DNA from: an uncultured Curvibacter sp.
GTDB taxonomy: Bacteria; Pseudomonadota; Gammaproteobacteria; Burkholderiales; Burkholderiaceae_C
Length of the DNA stretch: 34,605 bases
Reading direction: 5' to 3'
Assembly (NCBI GenBank): GCA_903902035.1
Contig: CAIUTG010000133.1
Span: 1 to 34,605, forward strand
Shown: one piece after another, positions 7,752-13,401 of the stretch
Layout: each line of letters starts with the position of its first letter
How positions within the stretch are numbered: position 1 is the stretch's first letter
Translations under genes and position numbers: made by a program
The notes under the pieces: model-generated
Told to the model about the DNA's origin: nothing
The model's database searches: none
Seen by the model: the letters and a program-made list of their open reading frames with translations, nothing else

Positions 7752-8384
7752 TCAGGGCGTCGCTGCGGGCCGTGCTCTTTGGAGCAAATGGGCATGCACC
7801 TGACCCGCTTTCAAATGGCGCAACACCCGCCAAGCACCGTCTGCGGCTTGGTGTTGGCTTTGCAGCGCTTGGTTCAGCCCCTCGTCTTGCCACTCTTGGC
7901 GGGCTTCGAGGTAAATGAAGCCCTCCGGCTTGAGCGCAGCGGCGGCCAAGGACAATGCCAACGCATAACAATCGCTGTCAAAAGGGGGGTCTAAAAAAAC
8001 CAGGTCCAACTCCGGTTGGGTGGCCCGTTGACGCAACTGGGCCAGGCCGTCCCCCCGCACCACGGTCACCCTTTGGGCCTGCAAGGTGCGTTGTGTGGCC
8101 TGAAGGTGGGCCACCAACGCCTTGGATTGCTCGACCAGGCACACGCTGGCGGCCCCGCGCGAAGCGGCCTCCCAACCCAGCGCCCCCGTGCCTGCAAAGG
8201 CATCCAGACAGTGCCAACCCGTCAAGTCCTGACCCAACCAGTTGAACAAGGTCTCGCGCACCCGGTCGGGCGTGGGGCGCAAACTCAAGGCCTCGGACAC
8301 AAAAGGCACGACCAAGCGCCGCCGACGCCATTGCCCACCAATGATCCGGATTTCACCCGGGTGAACCGCACGGGGTTGTTTCAA
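7752..8384 (-). CDS. rsmD: 16S rRNA (guanine(966)-N(2))-methyltransferase RsmD
   Basis: IRIIGGQWRRRRLVVP...LRPTPDRVRETLFNWL...CLDAFAGTGALGWEAASRGA...LVFLDPPFDSD. Confidence 0.94.
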   Translation of the reverse strand: MKQPRAVHPGEIRIIGGQWRRRRLVVPFVSEALSLRPTPDRVRETLFNWLGQDLTGWHCLDAFAGTGALGWEAASRGAASVCLVEQSKALVAHLQATQRTLQAQRVTVVRGDGLAQLRQRATQPELDLVFLDPPFDSDCYALALSLAAAALKPEGFIYLEARQEWQDEGLNQALQSQHQAADGAWRVLRHLKAGQVHAHLLQRARPAATP

Positions 8385-9808
8385 GGCTGGGCCCCCACCA
8401 GCACCGTGACCATGCGCTCGGGTTGCAAATGCCGCGCCATGGCTGCCCGCACTTCGGCCACCGTGACCCGCTGAATGTGCTCGGTCCAGGTGTCCAGGTA
8501 ATCGAGCGGCAAATGGTGACGGGCCATGTTGGCGACGTTTTCCAACAGTTTGCGGTTGTTGTCGATGCGCAGGGGAAAGCCCCCCACCAGGTTGTCTTTG
8601 GCGGCTTGCAACTCGGCCTCGGTGGGTCCCTCCGCCAGGTATTGGCGCAAAACCTCACGCGCCACGCCCAAAGCCTGATCGGCTTGGTCAGGTCGGGTTT
8701 GCAAACCCAGGGTGAAAGCACCTTCGTGCAAGCCAGGCGCAAAACCGCTGTAGACGCTGTAGCTCAGGCCACGGTCTTCCCGCACCGCCTGGGTCAAGCG
8801 CGACACAAAGCCGCCGCCGCCCAAAATGTAATTGCCCACCAGCAAGGGAAAATAGTCGGGGTCGCTGCGGCGGATGCCGGGTTGCCCCAACAAGACATGG
8901 GCTTGGGCCGAGTCAAAGGGAATTCGCAAAGTCTGTGCGGCCTTGAGTGGCGCCACATCGGGCACCGCAGGCAAGGCGTGGGCCGCGCAGTGGCTGGCGC
9001 CATTCAGGGCCGAACCGGGGGCCGAAGGGGAAACCAGGCCCTGGGTCAGGTGTTGCACAGCGGCTTCGGTCTGCGCCCGGTTCAAGGCCCCCACCACGGT
9101 CACGGTGGTCTGACAGGGATTCAAGGTTCGCTGCAAATAGACCTGCATGTCGCTGACGTGAATGGCCTGCAAACTGGCCACGCTGGGCATTTGACCGTAA
9201 GGGTGGTCCCCATAAACGGCTCGGCCAAAGGCCTTGGCCGCGACCGTGCCAGGCTGGGTGTCGGCCTCTTTCAATGCCGCTTGCAAACGCTCTTGCTCAC
9301 GCTGCCAAATCGGGGCTGACAGGCTGGACTCATTCAGTTCTCTGGCGGCCAGCGCCAGCGCGGGTGCCCACTGCGCAGGATCGGTCAGCGACCTGAGCGC
9401 AAAGCTCAGGCGGTCGCTGCTGGCCGAGGCACTGAAGGCGGCCCCCAAATCGGCCCAAGCCTCCCCCAATTGGTTCTCGTCCATGGCAGGCCCGGCGGCG
9501 GATTGTTTGACGCCCAAGCCGATCATGTCGGCGGTGGCCGCGGCCAATCCGGCTTGGCCTTTGGGATCGCGTCGGCTCCCCCCGTCGAACTCCAGCAAGA
9601 CATCGACCATGGGGATGGCGGGGCTTTCCACCAAATACACCTCCACCCCATTGGCCTGGGTCCAGTGCTGAATCGGGATGCCCGCTTGGGCCGATGCGGC
9701 CAGGCCCGACAAAACGCCGCAGAACAAAGCAGTGCGGGGGATCGAAGCAATGGTTTTTGTGAAAAATGAGGGCATGGCCGGGCCTTTAGTCTGCATGGTG
9801 ATGTTCAC
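8381..9808 (-). CDS. M16 family peptidase-like protein lacking the HxxEH motif (probable non-catalytic partner)
   Basis: 475 aa; signal peptide, M16 fold motifs (NYILGGGGFVSRLTQAVREDRGLSYSVYS). The region expected to carry HxxEH reads GLAAATADMIGLG. Confidence 0.85.
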   Translation of the reverse strand: MNITMQTKGPAMPSFFTKTIASIPRTALFCGVLSGLAASAQAGIPIQHWTQANGVEVYLVESPAIPMVDVLLEFDGGSRRDPKGQAGLAAATADMIGLGVKQSAAGPAMDENQLGEAWADLGAAFSASASSDRLSFALRSLTDPAQWAPALALAARELNESSLSAPIWQREQERLQAALKEADTQPGTVAAKAFGRAVYGDHPYGQMPSVASLQAIHVSDMQVYLQRTLNPCQTTVTVVGALNRAQTEAAVQHLTQGLVSPSAPGSALNGASHCAAHALPAVPDVAPLKAAQTLRIPFDSAQAHVLLGQPGIRRSDPDYFPLLVGNYILGGGGFVSRLTQAVREDRGLSYSVYSGFAPGLHEGAFTLGLQTRPDQADQALGVAREVLRQYLAEGPTEAELQAAKDNLVGGFPLRIDNNRKLLENVANMARHHLPLDYLDTWTEHIQRVTVAEVRAAMARHLQPERMVTVLVGAQP

Positions 9809-11267
9809 CCACCGCCCGCTTGGGGCGATTGGGGTCCAGGGGTTGAGGTTGTAAAACCCCGATGGTCAAACCATCGTCACCAAAATAGCGTTGTGCCACC
9901 GATTGCACCTGGGCCGGGGTCACGGCTTTGAGGGCTCGAATCAACCGGGGACTGGCGTCCAAAGCCAGGCCTTGGGCCCAATTCGAGCCGAGCTCTTGGG
10001 CTTGGTTGAAGATCGAATCCAGTTTGTAAACTTCGCTGGCCACCCACTGGGTTTTGACCCGATTCAACTCCGCCGGGTTCACGCCTTTTTCAGCCACCTG
10101 TCGCACCTGTTCACGCAAGGCCGCCACCACCGCATCAGCGGACTGGCCGGGGGCAGGAACGGCGTCCAACACAAACAACTGTGGCCCCCGCCCCAACAAA
10201 CCATTGCTGGCGCCCGCACGGTCAGCCAAGCGTTTGGGGCCCTGGGTCAGGGCTTTGTCCAGACGGGCGCCGGCATAGCCATCCAGCACCGCCGACAACA
10301 CCGTCAAGGCCAGGGCGTCTTGTGAAGCGGGGTCCAAAACCTCGTCCTCGGTCTCGCCCTGTTTCAAAGGCTGCTTGAAGGCGGTCAACTGCGGCACCTT
10401 GAAAGCCAGCGCCACGTAGGCCTGCTCAGCCGGGGCCTTGAATTCAAAGCGGCGCAAGCCCTTTTGTTCGGGCTCCAGGCGGGGCTTGCGCACCGGCAAG
10501 GCCCGATCGGCAATGGGCTCATAGTATTTTTGGGCCAAAGCCAACGCCTGCTCGGGCGTGATGTCGCCGGCAATCACCACCGCCGCGTTGTGCGCCACAT
10601 ACCAACTCTGCCAGAAATGGCGCACATCATCGGCCACCATGCTGTCCAGGTCTCCCATCCAACCAATCACCGAACGGTGGTAAGGCGAGGCCACAAAAGC
10701 CTGGGCATTCAAGGCCTCCTGCAGGGCGGCACGGGGGTTGTCATCGGTGCGCATGCGGCGCTCTTCCTTGATGACTTCGATTTCCTTGGTGAACTCGGTG
10801 TCCGGCCATTGGTTGTGGGCAAAACGATCGGACTCCAAGGCCATCACATCGGCCAATTTGCTCGCCGGAACCTGCTGAAAGAAGGCCGTGAAGTCCTCGG
10901 TGGTGAAGGCGTTCTCACGCCCGCCCAAACGGGCCACCTGGCGTGAGAACTGACCGGCTGGCACACGGGGTGTGCCCTTGAACATCATGTGCTCCAGGGC
11001 ATGGGCGACGCCACTGGTGCCATCCACCTCATCGATGGCCCCCACCCCCACCCACAGCATGTGCGCCACGGTGGGCGCGCGGTGATCGGGCTTGACGATC
11101 AAGGTCATGCCATTGGCCAGTTTGAACTGCGCCACGCCCTCGGCCTGCCCCCCACCGGCTTGTGCCATGGCAATCGAGGGGGGCAGCAGCCAGGCCGAAA
11201 CGACCAAAAACAAGGCGGCGCTTTGGATTTTGAGTGAGGTTTTGGCGAAGGGCATGGGCATTTTCAT
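9786..11267 (-). CDS. M16 family zinc metallopeptidase with intact HxxEH
   Basis: MKMPMPFAKTSLKIQSAALFLVV signal peptide; GVAHALEHMMFKGTPRVPAGQFSRQVARLGG. The start could also be 11279 (MAHSMKM...). Confidence 0.9.
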   Translation of the reverse strand: MKMPMPFAKTSLKIQSAALFLVVSAWLLPPSIAMAQAGGGQAEGVAQFKLANGMTLIVKPDHRAPTVAHMLWVGVGAIDEVDGTSGVAHALEHMMFKGTPRVPAGQFSRQVARLGGRENAFTTEDFTAFFQQVPASKLADVMALESDRFAHNQWPDTEFTKEIEVIKEERRMRTDDNPRAALQEALNAQAFVASPYHRSVIGWMGDLDSMVADDVRHFWQSWYVAHNAAVVIAGDITPEQALALAQKYYEPIADRALPVRKPRLEPEQKGLRRFEFKAPAEQAYVALAFKVPQLTAFKQPLKQGETEDEVLDPASQDALALTVLSAVLDGYAGARLDKALTQGPKRLADRAGASNGLLGRGPQLFVLDAVPAPGQSADAVVAALREQVRQVAEKGVNPAELNRVKTQWVASEVYKLDSIFNQAQELGSNWAQGLALDASPRLIRALKAVTPAQVQSVAQRYFGDDGLTIGVLQPQPLDPNRPKRAVGEHHHAD

Positions 11268-11283
11268 AGAATGTGCCATTCTA
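11267..11283. promoter_or_regulatory. Perfect palindrome TAGAATG-TGC-CATTCTA carrying opposed -10-like TAGAAT boxes between ftsY and the M16 operon
   Basis: 17-bp palindrome seen in sequence in the divergent intergenic region. Confidence 0.4.
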
Positions 11284-11294
11284 AGAACCAATTC

Positions 11295-12311
11295 ATGTTC
11301 TCATTTTTAAAGAAAAAAATAGCCCCATCGCCCCCACCCGTCGTCCCAGCGCCGGTGACAGGGGCGGTGGCCCCGACGCCGGTCCCGTCCAACGAGGCCC
11401 CTTCTCAGGCCCAACGGCAAGGCTGGCTGCAACGCCTCAAAACAGGCCTGAGCAAGACGGGGGGTCAGCTGGTTTCGGTGTTCACGGGCACCCAAATCGA
11501 CGAGGCCTTGTACGAGGAACTCGAAACGGCTTTGTTGATGGCCGACACCGGTGTCAAGGCCACCCAGTTTCTGCTCCATGACCTCAGGCGCCGGGTCAAG
11601 GAAAGCAAGGCCACCGAACCCCTCCAGGTCAAAGCCCTGCTGATCGAGGGCTTGACCGCCTTGCTGAGCCCGCTGGAAAAGCAACTGACCATTGGCCAGC
11701 ACACCCCCACCGTCATCATGGTGGCCGGCGTCAACGGCGCGGGGAAAACCACCTCCATTGGCAAACTCACTCAGCACTTGGCCCAAAGCGGTGCAGCGGT
11801 CTTGCTGGCCGCGGCCGACACCTTCCGTGCCGCCGCGCGCGAGCAACTGGGGGTCTGGGCCGACCGCAACGCGGTTGAAATCGTCAGCCAGGCTGGGGGT
11901 GACCCCGCCGCGGTCAGCTTTGACGCCGTCCAAGCGGGGCGTGCCCGGGGCAAAGATGTGGTGTTGGTGGACACCGCGGGTCGTCTGCCCACCCAAACCC
12001 ACCTGATGGAAGAGCTCAAGAAAATCAAACGGGTCTTGACCAAGGCCGACGCCAGTGCCCCCCATGAGGTGCTGCTGGTGATTGACGGCAACACGGGCCA
12101 AAATGCGCTGGCTCAGGTGCGCGCCTTCGACGACGCCATCGGGCTGACCGGACTGATTGTCACCAAACTCGATGGCACCGCCAAAGGCGGGGTCCTGGCA
12201 GCGATTGCCCAGGAGCACCCCATTCCGGTTTATTTCATCGGCGTCGGTGAACAATTGGAAGATTTACAAACCTTCAAGGCCCAGGAATTTGCCCAGGCCT
12301 TGCTCAACTGA
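11295..12311 (+). CDS. ftsY: Signal recognition particle receptor FtsY
   Basis: MFSFLKKKIAPSP..., GVNGAGKTTSIGKLTQHL, AADTFRAAAREQL, VLVDTAGRLPTQTHLMEELKKI, GLIVTKLDGTAKGGVLAAI. Confidence 0.97.
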   Translation: MFSFLKKKIAPSPPPVVPAPVTGAVAPTPVPSNEAPSQAQRQGWLQRLKTGLSKTGGQLVSVFTGTQIDEALYEELETALLMADTGVKATQFLLHDLRRRVKESKATEPLQVKALLIEGLTALLSPLEKQLTIGQHTPTVIMVAGVNGAGKTTSIGKLTQHLAQSGAAVLLAAADTFRAAAREQLGVWADRNAVEIVSQAGGDPAAVSFDAVQAGRARGKDVVLVDTAGRLPTQTHLMEELKKIKRVLTKADASAPHEVLLVIDGNTGQNALAQVRAFDDAIGLTGLIVTKLDGTAKGGVLAAIAQEHPIPVYFIGVGEQLEDLQTFKAQEFAQALLN

Positions 12312-12357
12312 CCCTCTGGGCCTTCAGAGGCCACGCACATCGGTTCTCCAAAAACCA

Positions 12358-12384
12358 TTAGCACTCTCGGCAAGAGAGTGCTAA
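12358..12384. promoter_or_regulatory. CIRCE element (HrcA operator) upstream of rpoH
   Basis: TTAGCACTC-TCGGCAAGA-GAGTGCTAA, an exact match to the CIRCE consensus TTAGCACTC-N9-GAGTGCTAA. Confidence 0.95.
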
Positions 12385-12438
12385 TATGGCGTCTATCGGG
12401 GCAAACGCCCCTTGAAACCGACTCGAAAGGATGCTGGA

Positions 12439-13401
12439 ATGTCCCTTCAAAACCAGAATTTGGCTACGGCCATTGCCTTGCCTGCTTGCCCCCAAGAGGC
12501 CACCGCCTTGAGCTGGGGCTTGTTGCCGCCGCTGGGCAACCTGGACGCTTACATCACCGCCGTCAACCGCATGCCCCTGCTGACGCCTGCGGAAGAACAA
12601 CAACTCGCGCGCGATCTGCGTGACCACAACCAAGTGGAAGCCGCCGGTCGTTTGGTGATGTCGCACTTGCGTTTGGTGGTCTCCATCTCACGCCAATACC
12701 TGGGTTATGGCCTGCCCCACGGTGACCTGATCCAAGAAGGCAATTTGGGCTTGATGAAGGCCGTCAAACGCTTTGACCCCGACCAGGGGGTGCGCCTGGT
12801 GAGCTATGCCATGCACTGGATCAAGGCCGAGATCCATGAATACATTCTGAAAAACTGGCGCATGGTCAAGGTGGCCACCACCAAGGCCCAGCGCAAGCTG
12901 TTCTTCAACCTGCGCTCCATGAAGCAAGGTTTCAAGGCGGACGCCTTGGATGAGGCCAGCACCCACCGCGACACCCTGAGTGACGCCGAAGTCAGCCTCA
13001 TGGCCAAGCGCCTCAACGTCAAACGGGAAGACGTGCTGGAGATGGAAATGCGGCTCTCCGGCGGCGATGTGTTGATGGACCCCAGCCCCCAGGACGACTC
13101 GGACAAAGCCTTTGGTCCGATTGCCTACCTGAGCGACGCACAGCACGAGCCGACCGCCATGCTGGAAGCCCAGCAACACGACCGTTTGGCCAGCGATGGC
13201 CTGGCCATGGCGCTCGAAGGCCTGGATGCGCGCAGCCGCCGCATTGTGGAAGAGCGTTGGCTCAAGGTCAACGACGATGGCAGTGGCGGCATGACGCTGC
13301 ACGACTTGGCCGCCGAATATGGCGTCAGCGCCGAGCGGATTCGCCAGATCGAAGTCGCTGCCATGAAAAAAATGAAAACCGCCCTGGCTGAATTCGCCTG
13401 A
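12439..13401 (+). CDS. rpoH: RNA polymerase heat-shock sigma factor RpoH (sigma-32)
   Basis: GDLIQEGNLGLMKAVKRFDPDQGVRLVSYAMHWIKAEIHEYILKNWRMVKVATTKAQRKLFFNLR (RpoH-box), C-terminal LHDLAAEYGVSAERIRQIEVAAMKKMK. Confidence 0.96.
   Translation: MSLQNQNLATAIALPACPQEATALSWGLLPPLGNLDAYITAVNRMPLLTPAEEQQLARDLRDHNQVEAAGRLVMSHLRLVVSISRQYLGYGLPHGDLIQEGNLGLMKAVKRFDPDQGVRLVSYAMHWIKAEIHEYILKNWRMVKVATTKAQRKLFFNLRSMKQGFKADALDEASTHRDTLSDAEVSLMAKRLNVKREDVLEMEMRLSGGDVLMDPSPQDDSDKAFGPIAYLSDAQHEPTAMLEAQQHDRLASDGLAMALEGLDARSRRIVEERWLKVNDDGSGGMTLHDLAAEYGVSAERIRQIEVAAMKKMKTALAEFA

Follow-up and report, generated by a model that had tools for sequence, protein, structure and literature searches.

The window analysed here, a 34,605-nucleotide stretch of DNA from an uncultured Curvibacter sp., carries rpoH, which encodes sigma-32, the heat-shock sigma factor (TIGR02392; cut-off of 323.1 bits), downstream of ftsY on the same strand (Table 1). 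A pattern search of the window found TTAGCACTC-TCGGCAAGA-GAGTGCTAA between the two genes, which is a perfect 27-bp CIRCE (0 mismatches) meeting the operator consensus TTAGCACTC-N9-GAGTGCTAA; ftsY stops 46 bp upstream of it, and 54 bp separate its end from the rpoH ATG (12439-12441). The original prediction had placed a perfect CIRCE 54 bp before the rpoH start codon, and its position, mismatch count and spacing were borne out exactly. No second CIRCE was present in the window at <=3 mismatches, where shuffles gave an expectation of 0.01, and an Rfam scan of the window returned no match. Right after the ftsY stop, CCTCTGGGCCTTCAGAGG (12313-12333) can form a hairpin and lacks a T run. On the other side of ftsY, two adjoining genes (8381-11291, minus strand) are divergent from it, the second of which (9786-11291, minus strand) matches M16-type peptidase models below the cut-off.

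Table 1. Features of the rpoH upstream region and flanking genes in the window.
Feature	Position	Strand	Basis
ftsY, upstream gene	11271..12311	+	TIGR00064, 325.6 bits
Place of the relatives' sigma-E promoter (GGAACTT-N16-TCnAA), decayed in the window	12346..12373	+	Alignment; rpoE and rseA absent
CIRCE operator, perfect: 9-bp arms, 9-bp spacer	12358..12384	+	Sequence search; kept in relatives
Putative sigma-70 extended -10, TGC-TAATAT, over the CIRCE right arm	12379..12387	+	Sequence; conserved in relatives
Ribosome-binding site AAAGGA	12426..12431	+	Sequence
rpoH, heat-shock sigma factor sigma-32, 320 aa	12439..13401	+	TIGR02392, 389.5 bits

The genome to which the window belongs (G000; 2.35 Mb, 95% complete) contains one hrcA, which is full length (339 aa; TIGR00331, 311.9 bits, where the cut-off is 197.2). 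Throughout this genome, CIRCE at <=3 mismatches occurs exactly twice, before groES and before rpoH, and a reversed control pattern gave zero matches. The proposal that the rpoH palindrome serves HrcA, which absence of hrcA would have contradicted, therefore stands, with an intact repressor gene and two candidate operators. At groES, CIRCE directly follows a sigma-32 promoter, CTTGAAA-N13-CCTTAT (11/13 match), and almost all of the 25 groES sites that were compared share this layout. Upstream of hrcA itself there is no CIRCE and only a weak sigma-32-like match, and we found no evidence of HrcA autoregulation in this genome.

The rpoH site is conserved, as the original prediction had called for. 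Among 61 relatives, rpoH upstream regions were readable in 58 genomes, including that of the window, and 56 of these 58 contain CIRCE at <=2 mismatches across the order. Nearly every one of the 61 relatives has two CIRCE copies, at groES and at rpoH (compared with the places of RpoH and 25 groES loci). At named rpoH loci, which include those of Curvibacter, Variovorax, Acidovorax, Comamonas, Polaromonas, Limnohabitans, and others, CIRCE was present at <=2 mismatches in 80/80 and was perfect in 64. One member of the genus, G005, has the rpoH upstream region of Curvibacter lanceolatus (L039 and L087 match), which suggests that a relative of this genus with a small genome is the source of the window. 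Presence of the site also tracks presence of HrcA. A complete relative genome (G055) encodes RpoH, lacks HrcA, and has no CIRCE anywhere, and in a class sample of 80 rpoH upstreams, about one per family, a site at <=3 mismatches precedes rpoH in 64/69 HrcA-positive genomes compared to 2/11 HrcA-negative genomes (Fisher p = 4e-7, where p-values overstate the independent evidence because genomes share descent). By contrast, 0/2740 shuffled upstreams contain CIRCE at this threshold. These counts refute the explanation that HrcA acts on groESL only and that the CIRCE at rpoH is a chance copy, to which we assign practically no probability, even though groESL has been described as the only constant HrcA target (PMC545781). 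The link between HrcA and rpoH can nonetheless be lost, as implied by the five HrcA-positive class genomes (5/69) without CIRCE at rpoH, the two HrcA-negative genomes that have one, and a relative (G045) in which HrcA is present yet rpoH holds only a 4-mismatch CIRCE remnant. In the two HrcA-negative genomes, G132 (L224) and G223 (L217), the rpoH CIRCE has 1 and 3 mismatches, respectively, and HrcA was not found; a missing contig, a recent loss of hrcA, or another repressor are candidate explanations.

Alignment of 109 rpoH upstreams on CIRCE revealed a second conserved element. GGAACTT is sharply conserved just 5' of CIRCE, and TCnAA is conserved within the 9-bp spacer, with 16 bp between them. 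Conservation falls sharply beyond the operator and these promoter elements, and DNA farther upstream is near random. Judged by its sequence, GGAACTT-N16-TCnAA is a sigma-E promoter of the same form as rpoHP3 of E. coli, which in strain MG1655 reads TGAACTT-N16-TCTGA and lacks CIRCE (best match, 8 mismatches). This motif call is supported by the transcription of the rpoH (fam) promoter of Bordetella bronchiseptica by SigE in vitro (PMC3490749). Across the class, the -10 of the sigma-E promoter (GGAACTT-N16-TCnnA) falls inside CIRCE at 80/122 loci, at position 7 (n=58), position 11 (n=20), or position 9 (n=2), and matches with the -10 in CIRCE occur at about 95 times their density in flanking DNA. 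The occurrence of several registers suggests that the overlap itself is kept, rather than one fixed alignment. The earlier reading of the rpoH site had thus recognized CIRCE and missed the overlapping sigma-E -10 of most relatives. In the window itself, GGAACTT-N16-TCnnA is absent before rpoH, whereas it is present in most relatives.

A likely sigma-70 promoter also overlaps the operator. TGCTAA closes the right arm of CIRCE, and the nAT that follows it at rpoH completes a TGC-TAAnAT extended -10. The final T is kept at 117/122 rpoH sites and occurs at 1/25 groES sites, and TGnTAnnAT is found at the right-arm position in 79/80 named loci; it is this retention at rpoH, set against its rarity at groES, that makes a sigma-70 promoter at TGC-TAAnAT likely. 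In the window, TGC-TAATAT matches the consensus without a good -35, a generic sigma-70 scan near the site gave nothing above threshold, and transcription is predicted to start near A12395. Hence, CIRCE overlaps conserved promoter elements of a stress gene in the relatives, and the corresponding promoter of the window is predicted. Other candidates for this upstream region were rejected: sigma-32 autoregulation of rpoH, for which the best match to CTTGAAA-N12-15-CCCCAT in the intergenic region was 8/13 compared to 11/13 at groES, and an RNA thermometer in the rpoH leader (z = -0.38 relative to shuffled sequences).

The absence of the sigma-E promoter from the window coincides with loss of the sigma factor. 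G000 and two sister genomes (G001 and G008) are 2.3-2.5 Mb in size, compared to 4.8-6.8 Mb in the rest of the genus, and neither an RpoE-type sigma factor, even at E 1e-5, nor RseA was detected in any of the three; the completeness of G000 is 95%, and its two sisters corroborate the absence. All three have lost GGAACTT, and the CIRCE spacer and upstream DNA have diverged, while the CIRCE arms are perfect and TAATAT is unchanged. Three further genomes (G016, G022, and G030) also lack rpoE, rseA, and the sigma-E promoter. Within the family, the sigma-E promoter lies on CIRCE in 23/29 rpoE-positive compared to 0/6 rpoE-negative genomes (p = 6e-4, subject to the same shared descent). The separate losses of hrcA and rpoE imply that the HrcA and sigma-E inputs can go independently of each other, and the window keeps HrcA only. 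As a separate observation, the predicted rpoH leader contains a hairpin, GGGGC-AAAC-GCCCC (12398-12411), which shows paired changes in G001 (GAGGTAAAATGCCTC) and G008 (GAGGTAAAATACCTC) among the three genomes of this rpoE-less sublineage.

This sublineage bears on whether the rpoH CIRCE is a relic, at which HrcA binds with little effect because read-through from ftsY or another promoter mainly drives rpoH. The loss of rpoE and of the sigma-E promoter, and the closeness of ftsY on the same strand, are compatible with a relic. However, the arms have stayed perfect in G000, G001, and G008 despite divergence of the spacer and upstream DNA, and TAATAT has not changed. Intact arms amid divergence point to ongoing selection, and we consider a relic improbable.

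A further alternative is that the inverted repeat acts as an mRNA hairpin, such as a 5' stability element, a thermometer, or an ftsY terminator, and not as a DNA operator. The arms would form a strong stem, the minus strand fits a terminator pattern, and a transcribed CIRCE affects mRNA stability in Bacillus. However, no T run follows the stem on the plus strand, and mRNAs begun at the starts predicted from the sigma-E -10 and from TAATAT, which are located within or past CIRCE, would not include the stem in full. Shuffled sequences fold as well as the leader downstream of the predicted start. The arms instead equal the HrcA consensus base for base, they vary asymmetrically (for example, TTAGCAGTC with the right arm unchanged), and CIRCE tracks the presence of hrcA. 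An RNA role for the palindrome is therefore unlikely, with about the same small chance as a relic.

We favor the interpretation that the palindrome is an HrcA operator that represses rpoH by covering its promoter, and we put the probability of this reading, which is drawn from sequence comparisons, at roughly 0.87. Promoter occlusion by HrcA is very likely because CIRCE is fused to conserved promoter elements. The claim that HrcA represses the sigma-32 gene is thus strengthened by the presence of hrcA, by conservation, by co-loss, and by promoter overlap, with repression itself predicted. We infer HrcA binding, occlusion, the transcription start, and the heat response as parts of the following circuit. 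In unstressed cells, free GroEL would keep HrcA active, and the repressor would bind the operator and block RNA polymerase at the extended -10, TGC-TAATAT. Once GroEL is taken up by unfolded protein, HrcA would become inactive, rpoH would be transcribed, and the amount of sigma-32 would rise. Sigma-32, together with direct derepression, would then increase groESL expression, and fresh GroEL would restore HrcA activity and close the loop. In most relatives, the sigma-E -10 in the same operator would allow envelope stress and GroEL shortage to be combined at this point, and HrcA bound there would mask the -10 region at each of the two promoters. Other HrcA proteins are known to depend on GroEL. 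In Campylobacter, HrcA binding is stimulated by GroE (PMC8533110). If HrcA activity depends on GroE here as well, the rpoH promoter should become accessible upon heating or in the presence of unfolded protein. The original description of two heat-shock circuits wired in series proved too simple: groESL, a sigma-32 target by its promoter sequence, would also be repressed by HrcA, and this arrangement implies a feed-forward loop with negative feedback by GroEL.

Parts of this arrangement resemble known systems. In Geobacter sulfurreducens, a CIRCE was predicted upstream of rpoH at position -51 in 2004 (Table 8 of PMC545781). As in the window, that CIRCE is perfect and lies at a nearly equal distance from rpoH, hrcA is present in the genome, and groESL is a target; unlike the window, G. 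sulfurreducens is a Deltaproteobacterium in which hrcA-grpE-dnaKJ also has CIRCE, and its rpoH site is an in silico prediction for which a sigma-E element was unreported (PMC545781). E. coli rpoHP3 and B. bronchiseptica fam are promoters of the same sigma-E type as that lying across CIRCE in most relatives and lost in the window; E. coli differs from the window's genome in having neither HrcA nor CIRCE, and HrcA and CIRCE go unmentioned in the relevant passages of the fam paper (PMC3490749). HrcA and CIRCE at groESL or dnaK in Bacillus, Campylobacter, and Chlamydia share the operator, the repressor family, and the GroEL modulator with the window. However, the HrcA targets in those bacteria are chaperone operons, whereas in the window a sigma-factor gene is the predicted direct target. 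A 2003 study by Permina and Gelfand may have listed CIRCE at some betaproteobacterial rpoH genes. The literature searched contained nothing direct on HrcA control of rpoH in betaproteobacteria and, with subscription papers and RegPrecise outside its scope, no description of a sigma-E -10 within CIRCE or of the class-wide pattern. Judged by this literature, CIRCE before rpoH had already been predicted in Geobacter, and the overlap of sigma-E promoter and CIRCE and its class-wide pattern are apparently new.

From the distribution of these elements, we lean toward the view that a composite HrcA operator and sigma-E promoter, with the -10 built into CIRCE, was the ancestral rpoH control point of the class. 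The E. coli type, with sigma-E P3 and no HrcA, would be derived by loss of hrcA, and the window lineage would be derived in the other direction, with HrcA but no sigma-E. The textbook heat-shock circuit was worked out in E. coli, a bacterium that lacks HrcA; if the layout described here functions as its sequence indicates, E. coli is probably the exception. Three stress-response systems that tend to be investigated separately meet at one short site, and natural knock-outs exist in both directions, with HrcA missing in some lineages and sigma-E in others. If the interpretation is true, a large part of the class regulates its sigma-32 gene by way of a repressor that senses GroEL availability, and HrcA sits on the very bases that sigma-E polymerase must melt, so that cytoplasmic and envelope stress would compete at this site.
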